The notes under the pieces were generated by a model. That model did not search any database and had not been told where the DNA came from. It saw only the letters and a list, made by a program, of their open reading frames with translations. Of a DNA stretch of 64,000 bases, positions 9,500 through 32,826 are shown piece by piece; positions within the stretch are counted from its first letter, which is position 1, and every line of letters begins with the position of its first letter. The translations under genes and the position numbers were made by a program. The stretch lies in the NCBI RefSeq assembly GCF_019801605.1, contig NZ_JAHVIT010000001.1, positions 1 through 64,000 on the forward strand, read 5' to 3'. The DNA is from Maritimibacter alkaliphilus. Its GTDB lineage: Bacteria; Pseudomonadota; Alphaproteobacteria; Rhodobacterales; Rhodobacteraceae.

Positions 9500-10843
9500 T
9501 CACTCGCCGTAGGTCATGAACCGGAGCACCCGGTTCATCATCGAAATCGAACTGACCGGCATTTCGTGCCAGGACGTGAAGCGGTATGCCGCGATGTCCG
9601 ATGCCGCGACGCTGCGCCCGCGCCAGGCGCCGCTGTCGAGCATCTCGGCGAACTTCACCGATTCCTCGCGGTAGCGACTGTCCGCGTCATTCTGCTGGGC
9701 GACGCAATCGGCGGGCATCGTCTGACCGGCGGCGTTCTCGTAGGGCAGGTAGGGCAGGCTGCCGCCCGAGATCTTCCAGTTGTCCCGCCAGACGCAGGGC
9801 ACCGTGCCCTCGTAGCCGGCCTGCCTCGGATCGTTTCCGGAACTCGCCAGCCCGTAATCGGTGTTGGTGATGAAGGTCAGGGTGGGGGCCGTGTCGGGCA
9901 GGTCCCGCAGGGCGTCGAGCAGCGCGGCGGTCTTGGCCTTGAAGGCCGCCGGATCGGCGAGGACATAGGGGTAGGGATAGTCGATCACGGTGCTCGCGAG
10001 GGACAGCGGCCTCCGGTCCCTGTCCTCTGCCATGATCCGCCCGAAGGGCAGGAGCACGTCTTCGATCAGGTCGCCCGTCGCCCCGGCCGATTTCAGCGCG
10101 GGCCGACCGCCGAGCGCCCAGTTCGGCAGGTTGAACAGCAATCCCATCCGGACCGAGAGCCCGCTGGCGGTCGTTGTCTTGTGGGTATCGACCCTGTCGC
10201 GCAGGCGCTTCATGTAGGCATGCACCGCCGTGGCGGTCTGCCGTCCCGAATAGCCGCTGCGGGCCTGTCCGACGGCGCAGCTGAACGCCTTTCTGGAGTT
10301 GGTGATCAGGCGCAGGAAGGGGCCGTCCACGTCGATCCTGCGGATCGGGATGCCCGCGTCGAGCAGCCGTTTCAGCGCGGTCTCGAATTCCCAGTCCGCG
10401 GCCTCCCGGCCGAGGGTTGCCGGATCGTCACCGGGCCCGCAGCCGGTGCCGCCAAGCCCGTAGCCCGCCACGTAGGTGACGTGGAAATCGTCCGCCGTGC
10501 CCGGCCCGCGGTTCATCGTCTCCCGGACCTGCTTCAGGGCCGGACCGGCGAGGTAGGTGCCATCGGGGCGGCTGCTGTGATCCGGCGCCCGCGGAGAGAC
10601 CATCCCCTGAGACAGGACCACGCCGCGCAGGCCCGCGGCATAGAGATCGTCCCACATCTTGGCGCGCGTGGCATTCGACCGGTCGAAGACCTTGTCGAAA
10701 TCGATGGAGCGCAGCCCGGGGCCGAATTCGATCTCGCGGGTGTGGCCTGGGAGAGGCTGCACCAGCAGCAGGGTGGCGGCCAGACAGATCGCGGTGGACA
10801 GACGTCGGACCTGCGATGACAGGCTCAGGGGGAAACGGGTCAT
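9500..10843 (-). CDS. Secreted protein of unknown function
   Basis: 447 residues. The N-terminus has basic residues then a hydrophobic core (residues 17-31) and looks like a signal peptide. The mature part reads as a globular enzyme-like protein with conserved-looking stretches such as GVVLSQGMV, YVAGYGLGGTGCG, RRIDVDGPFLRL and FTSWHEMPVS, and several Cys residues that could form disulphides. The alternation of short hydrophobic strands ending in D/E (RRIDVDGP, STVIDYPYPY, LTFITNTDYG) would fit a TIM-barrel hydrolase, but I cannot assign a family. It is convergent with nikO, 48 bp away, and seems monocistronic. Confidence 0.7.
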   Translation of the reverse strand: MTRFPLSLSSQVRRLSTAICLAATLLLVQPLPGHTREIEFGPGLRSIDFDKVFDRSNATRAKMWDDLYAAGLRGVVLSQGMVSPRAPDHSSRPDGTYLAGPALKQVRETMNRGPGTADDFHVTYVAGYGLGGTGCGPGDDPATLGREAADWEFETALKRLLDAGIPIRRIDVDGPFLRLITNSRKAFSCAVGQARSGYSGRQTATAVHAYMKRLRDRVDTHKTTTASGLSVRMGLLFNLPNWALGGRPALKSAGATGDLIEDVLLPFGRIMAEDRDRRPLSLASTVIDYPYPYVLADPAAFKAKTAALLDALRDLPDTAPTLTFITNTDYGLASSGNDPRQAGYEGTVPCVWRDNWKISGGSLPYLPYENAAGQTMPADCVAQQNDADSRYREESVKFAEMLDSGAWRGRSVAASDIAAYRFTSWHEMPVSSISMMNRVLRFMTYGE

Positions 10844-11172
10844 GCGGAGCCTCCGTGCTGAGGAAGGGCAGGCGCCGGAAGATCGCGGGTCGGGGGCGGC
10901 ACCGTCGTCCTCAGGATAGGCTGGGCCGCAGCGTGATCAACCGAAAGGCGCGCCCACACGCGGCTGTGACGCGCCGTGGCTGACCGCGCCGTCTAGGAGG
11001 ATGACATATGAGCCGGTTTGCCCTGATCCGGGCGTCCTGGGGGTGCGCTTTGGCGCGATGCCGGGTGGGACAGGCGCGGCGTATCCGGTCGGCGACAGGC
11101 AGGGTTGGGGCGGGGGCGCGAGGCCCCAACGCCCCTTCGCGCCGCGGGGTGGCGCCCTCCGGCGCCCGCCGG
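10844..11172. other. Intergenic stretch, 329 bp
   Basis: No supported gene. A strong Shine-Dalgarno AGGAGG (10995-11000) is followed 7 bases later by an ATG at 11008 in a frame that then runs antisense through the SDR gene. The short MSRFALIRASWG start has no support as a full gene and may be a decayed gene start. GC-rich inverted repeats near 11110-11160 could act as the terminator of the SDR gene. Confidence 0.4.
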
Positions 11173-25358: not shown

Positions 25359-25556
25359 GCGCCGGCACCGGTCCGGTCCGCGGGCAGGCGTCCTCGCCCC
25401 GCTGCGCGCAGGAAAATCCCGGTTTCCAAAGACGGGGGCTCTGAGTAAACACGCCCCGTGGCCGCGGGGCCTCTGGTGGCTGGCTCCAAGGGGCAGGCCG
25501 TGGCCAGACGCGCCGCCCCGGTCGCAGCTGCAACCCTTCAGCCCGATTGTCTGCCC

Positions 25557-26852
25557 GTGACCCCTGCTGCCCGCCTTCTCGACACCCTCGACCTCCTGAG
25601 CGACATCGATCGCCTCGCCCGCCCTGCGGATGCCGTGATCTCCGCCTGGGTCCGCGGCCGTCGCAAGATGGACGATGACGACCGGGGGGCCATCCTCGAC
25701 CGGCTCTATGCCCTCATGCGGCATCGGGCGCGGCTGGCCTGGTGGCTGGACCGGCACGGGCGCGAGGATACGTCGCGCAACCGCCTTCTGGCCTGGCTGG
25801 CCCTCGCAGAGGGCCGAAGCCCCGAACAGGTGAAGCGCCTCTGCTCCGGCGGGGCCCATGCGCCCGCGCCTCTGACCCGTGCCGAGCAGACGCTTCTGGT
25901 CAAGCTACAGGGCAGCGAGATCGAGCATCCCGACATGCCCGAAGAGGTGCGCGTCGAATGCCCGGGCTGGGCGGTCGAACCGTTGCGCCGCCGGTTCGGT
26001 GCGGATTTCAGTGTCGAGATGGCCGCCCTGCTGACGCAGCCCGCGCTCGATCTGCGGGTCAATACGCTCAAGGCGAACCGCCCGGACATGCTGCGCGCGC
26101 TGAAGACGCTCGACCTGCCGGCCGCGCCTTCGGAACTGGCGCCGCAGGGGATCCGGCTCAACCAGCGCCTGTCGCTGGGGCGGCTGGCTCCGCTGAAGAG
26201 CGGCGAGCTCGAGATCCAGGATGAAGGGTCGCAACTGGTGGCGCTGCTGGTCGGCGCCGGCCCGGGCGACCGCGTGGTCGACTTCTGTGCCGGGGCCGGG
26301 GGCAAGACCCTCGCCATCGCGGCCCAGATGGCCAACAAGGGCCGGATCATCGCCTGCGACGTCAACGAGGGCCGACTCAAGCGCGCCTCCGAGCGGTTCC
26401 GCCGCGCCGGGGTGCACAACGCCGAAACCCGCCTGCTGGCCAGCGAGACGGACCGCTGGGTCAAGCGCCACAAGGTCAGTTTCGATCGCGTTCTGGTCGA
26501 TGCGCCCTGCAGCGGCACCGGCACATGGCGCCGCAACCCCGATGCCCGCTGGCGCCCCGAGGACGATCAGGGGCTGGAGACCCTCGTGGCGCTGCAGGGC
26601 CGTATCCTGACCAGCGCCGCCCGCCTGGTGAAACCCGGTGGCCGGCTGGTCTACGCCACTTGCTCGATGTTGACGGAAGAGAACGAGGACTGCGTTTCGA
26701 CCTTCCTCGCAGCGCATCCCGAGTTTCGCGTGGTGCCGCTGCGCGAAGTCGCGCCACAGGTCACCAGATCGGCCCATGACAGCTACCTGTCCCTGACGCC
26801 CGCACGCCACGGGACGGACGGTTTCTTCGCGGCGGTCCTGCAGCGAGGCTGA
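25557..26852 (+). CDS. RsmB/NOP2-family RNA (m5C) methyltransferase
   Basis: 431 residues from GTG 25557, chosen because the family-like sequence begins with TPAARLLDTLDLL there. An ATG 99 bases upstream would add an unusual Ala-rich stretch. An N-terminal helical region is followed by the SAM-dependent domain: VVDFCAGAGGKTLAIA (motif I), IACDVNEGRLKRASERF, the catalytic-loop DAPCSGTGTWRRNPD, and YATCSMLTEENED with the second cysteine. Both cysteines required by RNA m5C methyltransferases are present, so an active enzyme on rRNA or tRNA is expected. It ends 94 bp before the att repeat of the genomic island. Confidence 0.9.
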   Translation: MTPAARLLDTLDLLSDIDRLARPADAVISAWVRGRRKMDDDDRGAILDRLYALMRHRARLAWWLDRHGREDTSRNRLLAWLALAEGRSPEQVKRLCSGGAHAPAPLTRAEQTLLVKLQGSEIEHPDMPEEVRVECPGWAVEPLRRRFGADFSVEMAALLTQPALDLRVNTLKANRPDMLRALKTLDLPAAPSELAPQGIRLNQRLSLGRLAPLKSGELEIQDEGSQLVALLVGAGPGDRVVDFCAGAGGKTLAIAAQMANKGRIIACDVNEGRLKRASERFRRAGVHNAETRLLASETDRWVKRHKVSFDRVLVDAPCSGTGTWRRNPDARWRPEDDQGLETLVALQGRILTSAARLVKPGGRLVYATCSMLTEENEDCVSTFLAAHPEFRVVPLREVAPQVTRSAHDSYLSLTPARHGTDGFFAAVLQRG

Positions 26853-26946: not shown

Positions 26947-26990
26947 TGGAGGCGAGTACCGGAATCGAACCGGTGTACACGGATTTGCAA
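26947..26990. repeat. Left attachment site (tRNA-Cys 3'-half duplicate)
   Basis: Identical over 44 bases to 32753-32796. It lacks the 5' half of the tRNA and so cannot be a functional gene; after TTGCAA the sequence departs from tRNA-Cys. This is the footprint of site-specific integration. Confidence 0.93.
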
Positions 26991-27706
26991 AACTTTGTAA
27001 CCATATGAATAAACGTGAAATTATTCCTATACGGAGCCTCGTACTCGACAAAACAAACCGTGAATGCCTAGACTGGTCTCCGGCCAGTTAGTACCGCCGA
27101 CCCCCGACATATCGCATGCTTGAATATAGCGTTAGATTTGGCCCCCACCTACGGAGCATACTTGGCGAGTTCGCCAGCTCACTCCATTGGCCAACGCAGC
27201 GCAGACCGGAGCCAGCCCAAAACTAGCGACCGCCCCCAGACCTTGTGATGGCCGAACTTAACCCCAAAAAAATATAGCGCTAGAGACCAAACTCGCAGTC
27301 TTTAGGTGGCATCTGGCGATCGCCGAGTGGCATCGGGGCTTCCTCCTCTGCAAGCCAAATCAATCGATACTCTTCCTGAGCTAGCTGAGATCAATCTGCA
27401 GTAATCGAGTTGCAGCTAGGCCGACGCCATGCAGCCTTCCTCTGTAGATTCCTCAACGCTTGCTACCGGAACAAAACTTCTTAGTCATTCCTCGTCTGCT
27501 GCAAGCAACCAATCTCGCAAGCATTCTGCAGAAGTCAGTGATCTGGGCGCCGGATGACCACAAGCTAATGCAAGCTCGCCAAATCGTCTGATCAATGGCA
27601 CACACAAGCTACCGCGAGCTCACTAGGCAGCGTTAGCACTTGATCAACTCGCCCTCGCGTTGCTTCATGTGTTTGAGCCGTTATTTCGCTTTGTTACGGA
27701 GGCACT
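26991..27706. other. Non-coding left arm of the island, 716 bp
   Basis: No open frame of 60 codons on either strand. The sequence is AT-richer than the host and contains repeated short words such as ATATAGCG(T/C)TAG (near 27126 and 27276) and several CAAGCT/GAGCTC words between 27560 and 27625. It must hold the promoter of the NACHT gene and may hold an RNA or remnants of lost genes; I cannot identify either. Confidence 0.5.
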
Positions 27707-30550
27707 ATGCCCTTGGGAACCACAGTCTCAGCCCTCTTGCTCTCTATAGGTGCCAACCTCATCACTCCCGCCTTTGAGTCGGTTAAAGGAAAAATAACAG
27801 ATCCAATTCAGCAATTGCTAATTCGCTCCAAGCTGGAAACGCTATCTGCATCAGCCTTCATGAAAATGGAGAGCTACCTTAGAAATGAAGTCAGGGGTGA
27901 TTTTGCGGATGAAAAAATTTCAAGACTGGTGAAGGAGGCTGAGGTTGTTACCTTACGTATCGCCGAAGATAAAAGGGCTATCGTGGAGGCGAATCGTGAT
28001 GCAGATAGATTAGTTTCTACATATATTGAGAGGAACGGCTACCCCGAGACAATCCGCGAAGATGGAACGACAACTGCCTTTCTGCATTTGCTGACGCTCA
28101 CCGTTTCTATGACCATAGAGATACCAGGCCTACTTCAGGATTGGGAGAAGGACTCTTGGTCAATTTCATTTGAGAAACTTGATGAGCTCGCTGTTTCTCT
28201 GGCGCACCAGACTGAACGTGTTCTTAAAGTCTCTGAAAACGTAGCAACGCTATCAGATGGCAAGCTAACTATTGATAAAGCCATGGTGAGCTTGAAAAAT
28301 GCGCTCATGCAGGCAAAGGCGAGAAATCAGATCGAGATGTCTGGGTTGTCTCCCGCTCAAGCCGCGTCAGCTCAATTGAGGTCAATTTTTGTCGCCCCAG
28401 AATTAGAAACACTAAAGGATGATAGTTCGCCGCATGAAGAACGGCTCCTGTCATCCGAAGAACAGATCCTATCTGAGGTTGCGCAAGCTAACTCGGTTAC
28501 TCGCATAACGGGTCCTGCCGGCGCTGGTAAAACAACTCTTTTGAGGTGGATCGAACAGCACTATTGGACATTAAGTACCAGAATAGCAGTGAGATGCGAG
28601 CTTAGGACCATATCAGCCGCGGATCAGCTTCCGAGTTTGCTTGACCTTTTTGTTAGTTGCATTCCTGTCGGAATGAGGGGAACTCTCTCAAATGACGATT
28701 TTTCGCGCTGGCTGAATGCCGGGAGGTGTATCTTAATATTCGATGGGTTCGATGAGGTCTCACAGAAGCGTCGCGACGAGATTCTGGAGTGGATTAGGGG
28801 ATGTGTAGCGGGCTCTGATAGCGGGAACACATTTATTGTATCGTCTCGGGCGCTTACAACAGACCATCTTTCTGATGAAAGTTGGGCCATAAGCGGTTGG
28901 AAGGTGCCACGAGCGTGGGGCGTATTGGGTTTTGACGCTCAACGCGTTGAAAAATACATAAGTAACTGGCAAGAGCATATGCTTAATCCTATCGAGCGCG
29001 AAGCATTGCTGGACAGTGATCGGCCCAAAGAATTGGCGAAGACCTTTATAGAGGCGGAAACCATAAGGGAGCTAACTTCAAATCCGTTGCTGCTTTCAAC
29101 TCTGATGCTTGTCCATAGGTTTCAAGGAAAGAAACTCCCTAAGAATAGATCGGATCTCTACAAGGTGTATATCGATGGGATGCTCGGGCCATGGTATGAA
29201 AAGAAGGCGAGCAGTCGGAAGGACTTCTACTTGGAGTCTGATCAAATGAGACGATTTCTAAAGCTGCTTGCTATCGAGATGCAGGAGAGAGAAGTTCCGT
29301 CTCTACCAGAAGGGGTTGCGGGAAGAATCATCTCTCGCAACAAGGGTGCCGTTAGGTTTTCGGGCCCCAAAATATTGGAGCACATGCTTGAACGAACTGG
29401 ACTTCTTGTTGGCCCTGGTGACTATCAATTTGCTCACAAGAGCATAGGTGAGTTTTTAGTTGCGGAGGCGATTTTATCTGAAAGTTTTCGCAACAAGGCG
29501 GGAGACAGGGTCGACCGCCTCCATCTGCTCAACCATGCTTCAGAAGACTCTTGGCGTGTGGTCCTATTCCTCTGGATTGGCTTAGTTCCGTCCCTTAAAG
29601 ATCTGAAGGCATTTTGCTACAGCCTTATTCGGTCTGGCTACATTCAGATAGCCGCCAGCGTGATTGAAGAGAGATATGAAGACTTCACGCTCGATCATAA
29701 GGAAGACCTTGCAGAGCTTCTCATGGAGATATGTACGTTCAAGGCGGACAAGGTCGCCGCGATGATGGATTCTCTTACCATGGGCCGTTACGTTAACGAA
29801 ACTAGCCTTCCGGAATCCTACAGGGCTCGGTTTGAGATAGAGTCCATTGGTTGCCTTAAGATCTCTGGATTGGCGCATTTTGAGCACGAATTCGTACTCA
29901 ACGCTATTAGAGACAAAATTATCAAACCGGAGATGTTTGCCGACGGCCCGGGGGACAACTCGTTCTACTATGAGTTGTGGCAGAGCTGGATACGTACTGG
30001 CGTCGACTTACCCACCCTTATTCGCCTAAGTCCGTCCTGCCTCTCTAGAGTTCAAGCTCTAAGTTGTATCGCGAGAAGGCGTGGTCTGGTGAAATTGGAA
30101 AGCAGTCTGACCAGTAACGTTCGAGACGTTTTGTTTGTACCGCACATTATAGACAGCGTGCATGATCAGATTGCTATGGGCCGATTTGTGCGCAATCGGG
30201 ATGCTGAGCTTGGGCTGAACATTGATATTATTGAGGGGTATCTGGATATTAACCCGATATCGAGCTGGCCTGATGATTGGATTCCGCCTAAATTTGGAAG
30301 CAATGTTGGACTGATAGAATGGGAGAATGATGAGGCTTGGGCGAAATGCACTCGCACAACACCGCCGCGTTCGATGAAGATTTTAAACGAATACCGCGAA
30401 CGAGCAAGGGAGCTATGTAAGCGATCAGAAGTCACCGGTGAGTCGTCATCCGTGAATAGCATTTGGACGCTGGAAACTGAAGATAGTCTTTTCGAATTTG
30501 TATCCAAGGATATTATGGAAAGAGGAGATCTGGGTAGTGATCACCGATAA
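27707..30550 (+). CDS. NACHT-domain STAND NTPase, probable anti-phage defence protein
   Basis: 947 residues. The ATG at 27707 is preceded by GGAGG with 5-base spacing. Residues 1-260 are mostly helical, start with a hydrophobic segment (residues 5-23) and have no recognised effector motif; this position matches the helical N-terminal domains seen in bacterial NACHT proteins. The NACHT NTPase has Walker A GPAGAGKTT (269-277) and Walker B CILIFDGFDE (341-350) with the small residue and second acid typical of NACHT rather than AP-ATPases. A sensor-like SSRALTTD and the winged-helix-like region follow, including LTSNPLLLSTLMLV and YQFAHKSIGEFLVAE, a hallmark of NACHT NTPases. The C-terminal 340 residues show no LRR or TPR periodicity. 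Codon use is AT-rich, unlike neighbours, indicating transfer. Confidence 0.88.
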   Translation: MPLGTTVSALLLSIGANLITPAFESVKGKITDPIQQLLIRSKLETLSASAFMKMESYLRNEVRGDFADEKISRLVKEAEVVTLRIAEDKRAIVEANRDADRLVSTYIERNGYPETIREDGTTTAFLHLLTLTVSMTIEIPGLLQDWEKDSWSISFEKLDELAVSLAHQTERVLKVSENVATLSDGKLTIDKAMVSLKNALMQAKARNQIEMSGLSPAQAASAQLRSIFVAPELETLKDDSSPHEERLLSSEEQILSEVAQANSVTRITGPAGAGKTTLLRWIEQHYWTLSTRIAVRCELRTISAADQLPSLLDLFVSCIPVGMRGTLSNDDFSRWLNAGRCILIFDGFDEVSQKRRDEILEWIRGCVAGSDSGNTFIVSSRALTTDHLSDESWAISGWKVPRAWGVLGFDAQRVEKYISNWQEHMLNPIEREALLDSDRPKELAKTFIEAETIRELTSNPLLLSTLMLVHRFQGKKLPKNRSDLYKVYIDGMLGPWYEKKASSRKDFYLESDQMRRFLKLLAIEMQEREVPSLPEGVAGRIISRNKGAVRFSGPKILEHMLERTGLLVGPGDYQFAHKSIGEFLVAEAILSESFRNKAGDRVDRLHLLNHASEDSWRVVLFLWIGLVPSLKDLKAFCYSLIRSGYIQIAASVIEERYEDFTLDHKEDLAELLMEICTFKADKVAAMMDSLTMGRYVNETSLPESYRARFEIESIGCLKISGLAHFEHEFVLNAIRDKIIKPEMFADGPGDNSFYYELWQSWIRTGVDLPTLIRLSPSCLSRVQALSCIARRRGLVKLESSLTSNVRDVLFVPHIIDSVHDQIAMGRFVRNRDAELGLNIDIIEGYLDINPISSWPDDWIPPKFGSNVGLIEWENDEAWAKCTRTTPPRSMKILNEYRERARELCKRSEVTGESSSVNSIWTLETEDSLFEFVSKDIMERGDLGSDHR

Positions 30551-30831
30551 GGGCTTATCGCGCGCTCTGAAGGTCTTGGGTGGTTGATCTCGCAATGTTA
30601 AGGAGTGCTCGCTAGCCCTCAGTGTCGCTTTGGACAAGGTTATGCGGCCGTTTGCGTGGATACTGCGATTTTGACGCACGTTATTCCCAGTCGCTCGGTA
30701 GTCACACTTGCGGCATTGGGAGCTGTTTGCTCCGCGTGGATATTGAAGGGTCTCATGCTGTCCGGTCTGGGTAAGTGATCGCTCAGTGTGGCGTTTTGGG
30801 GCGCCTCGCGGAGCAGTCGCTTCTTGCCGCT

Positions 30832-31227
30832 CTATGGTACCCTTTTGAACGCGGGATGGTACGCTCGGTGTTCCTTACGTAGGTAGTCGACCATTCTAGT
30901 GTACTCATTTCCAGTCTTGCTTAGATGGCTCTGGAAGGGCTTAACAGTGCTAAACCCGGCGTTTGGTAGCCCTATCCATTGAATGCCGGTCTGTGCTCGT
31001 TTATATGCGTACATGCGCGCGCAGAAACCCACTCGAGCGTCCGTGAATACGCGCGACGCTAGCCTCTCGCCCCCGGAGACATACACATCGGAGGGGGCGG
31101 GAGGCCGGCAGCATACGTACCCCTTGTTCCAATATGCATTTAGTGACAGCGCGAGCCGTCCCTCGTAGGGCGAAACTATGTTTGTGGGGAGGCCTGCTGA
31201 CGGGCGAGCGATGGAACTATTCGACAC
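30832..31227 (-). CDS. Hypothetical protein in the island (uncertain)
   Basis: 131 codons starting at GTG 31227, with TGAGGACC about 9 bases upstream as a weak ribosome-binding site. The composition is ordinary (aromatic residues, mixed charge, e.g. LSLNAYWNKGYVCCRPP and GNEYTRMVDYLRKEHRAYHP), unlike the Arg/Ser-rich shadows elsewhere. No family is recognised. It is convergent with the NACHT gene. It could be a genuine cargo gene or chance in low-GC DNA. Confidence 0.35.
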   Translation of the reverse strand: MSNSSIARPSAGLPTNIVSPYEGRLALSLNAYWNKGYVCCRPPAPSDVYVSGGERLASRVFTDARVGFCARMYAYKRAQTGIQWIGLPNAGFSTVKPFQSHLSKTGNEYTRMVDYLRKEHRAYHPAFKRVP

Positions 31228-31357
31228 GCGGCGCCGGGGTCCTCAAGCGATAGCCAGACATCGCGCCGGGTGTCAAGAAAACGCCTGCATTTTAAGGCGG
31301 TTTCTCAAGCAGACTGGTATAGTTGTCACGTTTTGTCTTATACGTTTAGTGACAGCG
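31139..31357. repeat. Direct repeat TTTAGTGACAGCG upstream of the integrase module
   Basis: Copies at 31139-31151 and 31345-31357 are identical over 13 bases. TGTCAC at 31324-31329 is an inverted match to the GTGACA core of the second copy (31349-31354). Spacing and position, 160 bp before the first integrase-module gene, suit arm-type integrase sites or a regulator operator; this is inference. Confidence 0.4.
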
Positions 31358-31518
31358 TCCGGCTGCTTCTGGGTATATCTTCCTAGCTTCCTTGTCCGTG
31401 AGTCGCGGGCCATCTACCTTACCCCAACGAGACGGTTTGCCTGTGCGCCCAACTGCACATTCACCCCTTCGGTGCGCAAACCTGACGTAGAGAACGGCAA
31501 TCTTCTGTTGGTGGAAAA

Positions 31519-31692
31519 ATGGCGGCGACGAACATCGAACAAAAGGCCCTCAGCCTGCTGAATGCATTTGAACGGGCTGGCAAGTCGGTAAGCCGCGTTA
31601 TGGTGGATGGCCGGAAGATCGAAATCGTTCTTCGCCAGAACAGTGAAGTTGATGAGTTTGATAGGATAGATATGACCCATGGCAAAACGTGA
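31519..31692 (+). CDS. Small protein overlapping the integrase start
   Basis: 57 residues: MAATNIEQKALSLLNAFERA, then GKSVSRVMVDGRKIEIVLRQ and an acidic end. It overlaps the integrase start by 14 bp in another frame, so the two are translationally coupled. The composition (charged helix, then a short beta hairpin with RVMVDGRKIEIVL) looks natural. It could be a recombination directionality factor or integrase partner; there is no recognised helix-turn-helix, so the role is open. Confidence 0.65.
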   Translation: MAATNIEQKALSLLNAFERAGKSVSRVMVDGRKIEIVLRQNSEVDEFDRIDMTHGKT

Positions 31693-32692
31693 GCTCCCCA
31701 AGTACGTCTATCGCCAGCGCAACGGCATCTATTTTCAACGCCGGGGCTGGGCCTCTCAGAAATTCAAAAACGAATTCGGCTCTCCTGAGTTCTGGAAGGA
31801 ATACGCCGATATTCTCGGTGGTAAGGAAAAGCCACAGCGGGTCACGTCCCGCAATTTCCGCGCTCTGGTGAAGAGCTACCACAAGTCCCCCAAGTACGCG
31901 CGGCTCAAGACGCGCACGGCGCTGGACTACGACAAGTACCTGGAGTTTTTCGTCTCGATCATGGGCGACGCCAACCCGGCGGCCATGAAGCGCAAAGACG
32001 TGATCCGCATGCGCGACAGCAACGCCCATAAGGTCTACTTCGCCAACTACTCGCTGCGCGTGCTCCGTGTCCTGATGGAGCACTGCGTCGATCTGGGCTG
32101 GCGGGAGACCAACCCGGCGCGGGGTGTGGCGGAGCTGAAGTCAGAGACGGTAAAGCAGCGCGAGCCTTGGCCGCGCGAACTCCTCGACGCCTTCCGGGAG
32201 GCGTGCCCACTCGGGACGCGGGAACGGCTCGTGATGGAGCTCTGCGTCTGCACCGGCCAGCGGATCGGGGACGTTCTCGAAATGCGCTGGTCCGACATTC
32301 AGGAGGGCGCAATCGTCCTCCAGCAGAACAAGACCAAGAAAGTTCTCTGGGTACCGATCCTGCCGGAGCTGCAAGCGGCGCTCGACGTCGCCAAGCGCAA
32401 CTCGGTCTTCATCGTGACCAATGAGCGGGGGACCAACTCTTGGTCCTATCGCGGCGCATCACATGCCGTGCGCGAGGTCCGCAAGAAGATCGGGGCGCTC
32501 GACTACGACATTCATTCGTGGCGCTACAACGCGGCCTGCGAGCTTCTGGAAGCGGGCTGCGAGGATGATCTGATCGCCGCCGTGACGGGCCAGAGCCCGG
32601 CCATGGTTCTGCACTACACCAAGAAGGTTCGCCAGCGCCTGAGGGCCATCCAAGCGCAGCGGATGAGAACAGAACAAAAACAGAATGTTTAG
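31679..32692 (+). CDS. int: Tyrosine site-specific recombinase (integrase)
   Basis: 337 residues. The N-terminal SAM-like core-binding domain spans about 55-150. The catalytic residues are in the expected order: R195 (CTGQRIGDVLEMRW), Lys in the beta hairpin (QQNKTKKVLWVPI, K218-K221), H279-x-x-R282 (HSWR), and nucleophile Y313 (LHYTKK). The residue usually His/Trp before Tyr is Q305 (TGQS). Gene end lies 60 bp from the tRNA-Cys 3' end, the standard arrangement for tRNA-integrating elements. It should recombine the 44-bp att sites. GC content is host-like, unlike the NACHT cargo. Confidence 0.93.
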   Translation: MAKRELPKYVYRQRNGIYFQRRGWASQKFKNEFGSPEFWKEYADILGGKEKPQRVTSRNFRALVKSYHKSPKYARLKTRTALDYDKYLEFFVSIMGDANPAAMKRKDVIRMRDSNAHKVYFANYSLRVLRVLMEHCVDLGWRETNPARGVAELKSETVKQREPWPRELLDAFREACPLGTRERLVMELCVCTGQRIGDVLEMRWSDIQEGAIVLQQNKTKKVLWVPILPELQAALDVAKRNSVFIVTNERGTNSWSYRGASHAVREVRKKIGALDYDIHSWRYNAACELLEAGCEDDLIAAVTGQSPAMVLHYTKKVRQRLRAIQAQRMRTEQKQNV

Positions 32693-32707
32693 ACTTTTGC
32701 TTAGACT

Positions 32708-32749
32708 TTTTCAGGGGCCTTGTCGCGCTTCGCGCTAAGCCCCTGAAAA
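32708..32749. other. Inverted repeat between integrase and tRNA
   Basis: TTTTCAGGGGC (32708-32718) pairs perfectly with GCCCCTGAAAA (32739-32749), with a small internal GCGC hairpin in the loop. There is no T-run after it on either strand, so it is not a classical terminator. It could still end integrase transcription or bind a recombination protein. Confidence 0.5.
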
Positions 32750-32752
32750 CGC

Positions 32753-32796
32753 TGGAGGCGAGTACCGGAATCGAACCGGTGTACACGGATTTGCAA
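32753..32796. repeat. Right attachment site inside tRNA-Cys
   Basis: The 44-bp stretch from the CCA end to the anticodon loop is identical to 26947-26990. Strand exchange probably occurs near the anticodon loop end, as for many tRNA-specific tyrosine integrases. Confidence 0.93.
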
Positions 32797-32826
32797 TCCG
32801 CTGCGTCACCACTCCGCCAACTCGCC
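32753..32826 (-). tRNA. tRNA-Cys (anticodon GCA)
   Basis: The minus-strand sequence begins GGCGAGT (32826) and ends ACTCGCC-T-CCA (32753), giving a 7-bp acceptor stem with encoded CCA. The anticodon arm GCGGA-TTGCAAA-TCCGT has loop anticodon GCA. The T arm ACCGG-TTCGATT-CCGGT is intact. The gene remains complete because the island's att site restores its 3' half. Confidence 0.96.

Follow-up and report, generated by a model that had tools for sequence, protein, structure and literature searches.

A tRNA-Cys island of Maritimibacter alkaliphilus with a microvirus-type replication origin and a NACHT gene, a candidate satellite of single-stranded DNA phages

We analysed a window of 64,000 nucleotides from Maritimibacter alkaliphilus (NZ_JAHVIT010000001.1, positions 1 to 64,000), which contains a 5,806-bp island at a tRNA-Cys gene with a GC content of 52.1%, the flanking 20 kb on its two sides having 70.8% and 68.5%. 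The intact tRNA-Cys gene (32753..32826, minus strand; ARAGORN, Rfam) includes the proximal copy of the attachment site (att) at 32753-32796, and the distal copy at 26947..26990 (44 nt, plus strand) is a 100% identical, integration-made duplicate of the tRNA-Cys 3′ part. Besides the tRNA, Rfam gave a sub-threshold tmRNA match at the distal att. Three genes on the plus strand were scanned with Pfam, NCBIfam, PHROGs, and PADLOC: a NACHT NTPase gene (27707..30550, 947 aa; PF05729, 40.4 bits with a cut-off of 26.7), a small open reading frame (ORF; 31519..31692, 57 aa), and a tyrosine integrase gene (31679..32692, 337 aa; PF00589, 1.7e-15), whose start overlaps the small ORF by 14 nt. The region from −160 to −5 upstream of the integrase, i.e. 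the position of the small ORF, is conserved among sister elements, and by analogy the small ORF is possibly an excision partner of the integrase. No particle or replication gene and no relaxase or transfer gene was found among these three proteins (other short ORFs were outside the scan), and a tblastn search of the island with the Rep, capsid, pilot, and peptidase proteins of microviruses gave a best E-value of only 0.72. The island is therefore not a member of the Microviridae, since neither capsid nor Rep was detected, and judged by the three proteins scanned it is not an integrative conjugative or mobilisable element either. The initial annotation had described the 44-bp repeat bounding 5.8 kb with integrase, small coupled ORF, and 947-residue NACHT protein, all of which we recovered; it had overlooked the conserved non-coding cassette (31062-31148) and a further integrase copy, which lies at 886 kb on this contig.

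At E ≤ 1e-40, 609 homologues of the integrase were found, and the named organisms among the 120 listed were mostly Roseobacter-clade bacteria. Within a sample of 394 genomes of the family with about one per genus, 13 carried it at E ≤ 1e-110. Six more complete elements were found at the tRNA-Cys site with the att layout of the window island and with integrases 75–82% identical to its own: L058 (5,443 bp), L076 (5,240 bp), L097 (5,050 bp), L098 (5,763 bp), L103 (5,299 bp), and L108 (5,877 bp). Since the 44-nt core thus bounds a 5.0–5.9 kb element on both sides in six more genomes or contigs, the att-bounded island is not a chance arrangement. The core is identical to that of the window in five of the six; in L097 it is one base off in both copies, and the inner side adjoins another sequence with no intact tRNA there. 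An eighth element, L101, has the distal core on a contig that ends before the other side. In L105, L107, and L109, and also in L108, the integrase is in two pieces. An empty site for the window island was not found among 21 same-genus relatives, and that beside L098, looked for in G794, gave only scattered matches of 66–82%. Genus-level searches around G485 and around G749, each covering two genomes, yielded no further element.

Upstream of the integrase, the sister elements have some 90 bp in common, the surrounding sequence having diverged. This stretch consists of a 13-bp GC hairpin followed by the motif CTTGTTnnnnTATGCATTTAGTGACA, which starts 418–640 nt before the integrase gene in 11 well-matched loci. 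In the window, the hairpin lies at 31062..31105 (31062-31074 pairing with 31093-31105) and the motif at 31123..31148, both on the plus strand, and a covariance model of the cassette matches 31055-31148. With at most three mismatches at the 22 fixed bases, the motif was present in 11 of 15 integrase loci with enough upstream sequence (with zero mismatches in the window; L078, L079, L099, and L106 were left out because of short upstream sequence). The end of the motif recurs in weaker form (TATACGTTTAGTGACA; direct repeat D15, 4/22 mismatches) at 31339..31354 on the plus strand. Across the 11 elements, two-sided changes occur at 8 of the 13 hairpin pairs, and 94.4% of the cells pair vs 54.5–60.8% in slid controls. 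Single-sequence folding is less striking, with a z-score of −1.63 for the window vs −4.4 to −5.3 for the microviruses tested. Six loci with 66–69% identical integrases (L091-L095, L104) showed no motif at up to six mismatches.

The motif leads to single-stranded DNA (ssDNA) phages. Exact copies of the 16-mer TATGCATTTAGTGACA were found in 84 IMG/VR contigs, and 64 of the 80 listed carry homologues of the microvirus capsid or Rep; the other 16 lack both, one of them (L192) being the L076 element itself and 15 remaining unassigned to microviruses. In three contigs whose ORFs were read, Rep starts 16–26 nt past the motif, and a hairpin directly precedes the 16-mer in most flanks shown. The microvirus Rep matches PF23343 and phrog_942, and the capsid phrog_514. 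A capsid search led to the Roseobacter phages CRPss-151 to -155 and -251, with all four records checked classed as Microviridae; CRPss-151 and CRPss-152 have the exact motif and the hairpin just before Rep, and CRPss-251 a variant of it. In an unselected comparison of 41 nt of the window with 50,697 phage records, all five matches were microviruses (four from Roseobacter, one from tortoise). The same four Roseobacter microviruses came first (E 1e-3) with the origins of L108 (12 matches, others at E 3) and L101 (18 matches, others at E ≥ 3). Judged by this sequence identity, the cassette is the marine Microviridae origin region, and by the identity of the origin alone the island would carry a cis signal of its helper. 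As the annotated origin of phiX174 begins directly after CTTG, CTTG^T of the island (31126^31127) is the likely nick site of Rep. We rejected a chromosomal site of the host, for example dif, as source of the motif, as 385 of 394 genomes had no match; in the other nine, 14 places matched the pattern, three of them in G649. The viral contigs L168, L178, and L190 share a context of phage-like genes in which the 16-mer follows a small inverted repeat.

Of 21 microvirus sources, the covariance model, built from the 11 elements alone, matched 20 at E ≤ 1 and 17 at E ≤ 0.01. Thirteen of these sources had been chosen by the 16-mer, two by a 26-letter pattern, and six by capsid only, and five of the latter six were matched. 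The model also matched four of six integrase-element sources, two of which had trained it, and none of 18 control loci with tRNA-Cys or a related (66%) integrase. Applied to 388 genomes at E ≤ 0.001, it found 14 places in 13 genomes, namely nine integrase elements (8 genomes), four apparently integrated microviruses with Rep homologues next to the origin (G488, G083, G514, G782), and one small plasmid. The last, G085:C2 (L239), is a contig of 5,857 nt with the origin cassette at 270-369 and a Rep_3 plasmid initiator; given its 78-nt terminal repeat, it is probably a circle of 5,779 bp. No microvirus genes were found on it at E ≤ 1e-5, and it is possibly a plasmid-type microvirus satellite. Apparently integrated microviruses with the same type of origin beside Rep were seen at L210, L211, L240, L241, and L242 in five genomes of the family. 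Three contigs of G649 (L212, L213, L214) have the motif at 0–1 mismatch with neither this integrase nor a microvirus Rep nearby, and L214 (6,793 nt) encodes a Rep_3 initiator.

Element size points in the same direction. The seven complete elements span 5,050–5,877 bp vs 5,398–5,669 bp for 12 circular microvirus contigs, and Roseobacter microvirus isolates have 5,409–5,978 bp, so that the island with its 5,806 bp falls within the range of the putative helpers (5,398–5,978 bp) and would fit their capsid. Other tRNA-Cys islands of the genus extend over about 10–31 kb from the tRNA-Cys to the next att (G006, G019, G003, G008, G001). Among 119 integrase-bearing contigs, 27 have lengths of 4.8–6.7 kb, 10 of 2.5–4.8 kb, and 5 of 6.7–8.6 kb, a peak which is expected of circular DNA and also of assembly breaks at att.

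We propose, with a probability of roughly 0.7, that the island is an integrative satellite with ssDNA microviruses as helpers. Through a copied origin and a length that suits the capsid, it would make use of the helper's Rep and capsid, with one defence system as cargo. By its anatomy it would be a phage satellite of Microviridae, replicated and packaged by the helper and transferred in helper particles. The integrase, probably together with the overlapping small protein, would excise the island as a circle, and the Rep of an infecting microvirus would nick the borrowed origin and start rolling-circle synthesis. As the circle is as long as a microvirus genome, the capsid of the microvirus could take up its single strand and bring it into another cell for integration at tRNA-Cys, and there NACHT or other defence cargo would benefit the host against competing phages. 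phiX174 can package origin-bearing DNA of suitable length.

Several points weigh against this proposal. The case is built on sequence, and excision, replication, packaging, and transfer are unobserved; also, no helper of M. alkaliphilus is known. CRPss-154 lacks the motif, and the origin of L100 gave by blastn no microvirus, only three Streptomyces phages at E 0.8–9. The motif is degraded in L109 (five mismatches) and L077 (six, hairpin present) and absent at up to six mismatches in L105 and L107, yet the covariance model gives E 0.009 for L105. Eight of the nine integrase-element matches in the 388-genome scan belong to the training set of the model. The 886-kb integrase copy shows one att only in the stretches scanned, and the contig-length peak, for which there was no control, may reflect the assembly breaks. 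Viral contigs with the integrase are few, with four IMG/VR loci by single sequence and ten by alignment (one of the ten a 28% match), so that mass packaging is not visible in IMG/VR.

Other explanations of the cassette have to be compared with a satellite lifestyle. The borrowed origin might titrate the microvirus Rep or divert its replication, making it an anti-microvirus device on islands that move otherwise. An origin present without any replication gene, next to other cargo that is mostly defensive, would suit such a decoy, but it needs no fixed length, yet all seven complete elements measure 5.05–5.88 kb and a plasmid with the origin also 5.78 kb, and we regard it as unlikely. Alternatively, the origin could be a relic acquired from integrated microviruses, the islands being moved by tailed-phage transduction or other helpers. 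Apparently integrated microviruses do occur in the same family, relatives have phage-like genes at the same tRNA-Cys (by sequence reading), and in Pseudomonas jumbo phages are reported to move islands with integrase and defence genes that lack transfer genes (PMC12595487). However, a relic would not keep its hairpin by compensatory changes across 11 elements, nor its place beside exchanged cargo, which leaves this a quite improbable origin of the cassette.

It is also conceivable that the island is an ordinary tRNA island whose cassette, always situated ahead of the integrase where present, is a regulatory or integrase-related site resembling microviruses by coincidence. The stretch of the window matched microviruses only, however, and a reversed control pattern gave 0 matches in 394 genomes. 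Two hundred shuffled islands contained one match in total at ≤4 mismatches, whereas the real island has one at 0, and the model matched none of the 18 control loci, six of which have related integrases. A coincidental match thus appears very improbable.

The cargo of the elements was inspected at ten integrase loci (window, L053, L058, L076, L077, L097, L098, L101, L103, L108), with L100, L102, L105, L107, and L109 outside the annotation. The sister elements carry unrelated cargos, mostly a different anti-phage system each. Strong defence matches were obtained for five of the ten, i.e. a type IIG restriction-modification system in L098 (1,602.6 bits), Dsr1 in L108 (1,216.7 bits), SIR2 and HerA in L076 (186.7 and 559.7 bits), CBASS with E2, cyclase, and phospholipase in L101, and PDC-S73 in L077 (445.5 bits). 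Three have weaker matches: an OLD/GajA/AriA-like ATPase in L097 (64–76 bits), an ApeA-like protein in L053 (34.6 bits), and NACHT in the window. For L058 (HipA-like kinase) and L103 (nuclease domain), a scan with Pfam only, with no PADLOC run, revealed no known defence family. The suggestion in the initial annotation that tRNA-Cys hosts a compact defence cassette lacking transfer genes is supported by sisters with the same integrase type, the same att, and other defence systems; 'stand-alone', as it was also called, is probably wrong, because size and non-coding origin indicate a microvirus helper for replication and transfer. In L056 and L077, phage-like genes (terminase-like and capsid-like by sequence reading) lie next to tRNA-Cys att copies, in L077 adjoining a defence element.

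The NACHT protein comprises a helical N-terminal part, the NACHT domain (265-423), and a long C-terminal part. Among its 70 homologues are nine near-full-length relatives at 38–65% identity and one shorter, the next ones having about 30%. The GxxGxGKTT and DGFDE columns are kept across the homologues, and the protein has the NACHT domain with intact ATPase motifs that characterises bNACHT proteins of the STAND class. The predicted structure (mean pLDDT 77.8) has NOD2, NLRC4, and NLRP3 as best PDB matches. PADLOC gave nothing above 17 bits, and NCBIfam DS8_antiphage reached 28.1 bits, far below its cut-off of 790; the suggested defence role is therefore drawn from the domain and from the defence genes in sister elements. 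The NACHT gene was found in one of 385 class genomes searched, the window's own, with only five of the genomes shown belonging to the same family. Among named genome contigs, it was found in none by single sequence, and by alignment one relative of 29% appeared.

Several known elements resemble the island. Phage-inducible chromosomal minimalist islands (PICMI), known as 67 Vibrionaceae elements of 6.7 kb on average, are likewise small, marine, and equipped with an integrase, a small int-overlapping gene (iolg, needed for excision), and phage defence, with no capsid-remodelling genes; unlike the island, they carry alpA and a primase, sit next to fis, and enter tailed-phage particles as concatemers (PMC10803314). 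The island has neither alpA nor primase among its scanned genes, and with a tRNA-Cys site, a microvirus origin, and int as the only shared gene it is not a PICMI. Islands of Pseudomonas adjacent to tmRNA, such as I55, share the tyrosine integrase, direct repeats, putative phage defence, and lack of known transfer genes, but are moved by jumbo phages, and the text available mentions no microvirus origin or fixed small size (PMC12595487). pDolos, an inovirus satellite plasmid, also has an ssDNA phage helper, which is filamentous, and is an autonomous plasmid, whereas the island integrates and its presumed helper is an icosahedral microvirus (PMC11389934). PICMI and the tmRNA islands are thus closest in lifestyle and pDolos in helper type. 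The same source names tycheposons and VEIMEs as proposed phage-satellite families of marine bacteria (PMC11389934). Roseobacter microviruses share the origin cassette (exact in CRPss-151 and -152, matched also in -153 and -155) and a similar length; they encode Rep and capsid with no integrase annotated in four records, and the island has the reverse.

Phage satellites are known, and as far as could be seen the microvirus type of helper and the bare-origin strategy are new; literature searching aimed at other questions met no described microvirus satellite, and absence from print is not claimed. In general terms, we think it rather likely that integrative satellites of icosahedral ssDNA phages exist which need only a copied origin and a length that suits the capsid to hijack microviruses. 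They would have no replication or packaging genes and so leave 3–4 kb for one exchangeable defence system. Capsid size would then limit which systems spread, microviruses would carry bacterial immunity, and at least one small Rep_3 plasmid would use the same trick. The satellites compared use tailed or filamentous helpers, and a bare origin plus length limit would, if true, be more minimal. It would also account for the movement, among marine bacteria, of defence islands that hold a single system and have no transfer functions, and give microviruses a role in spreading immunity, with systems fitting about 4 kb predicted to spread in this way. With the origin covariance model, the idea can be followed up by searching any genome, and it is directly testable with the Roseobacter microviruses, whose records name host strains.

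The left neighbour of the island is an RsmB/F-type rRNA methyltransferase gene (window 25458-26852). Close homologues were found in 3 of 21 same-genus genomes (G006, G007, G016), in which tRNA-Cys lies elsewhere, so that the left flank is rearranged or accessory. The second copy of the integrase module (99% at the amino acid level) lies at 886 kb of the window's contig (L053, 876-896 kb; 9980-11101 therein) with a 48-nt att in inverted orientation, and its flank L053:1-9980 is collinear with G011:C4 (~80–92%).

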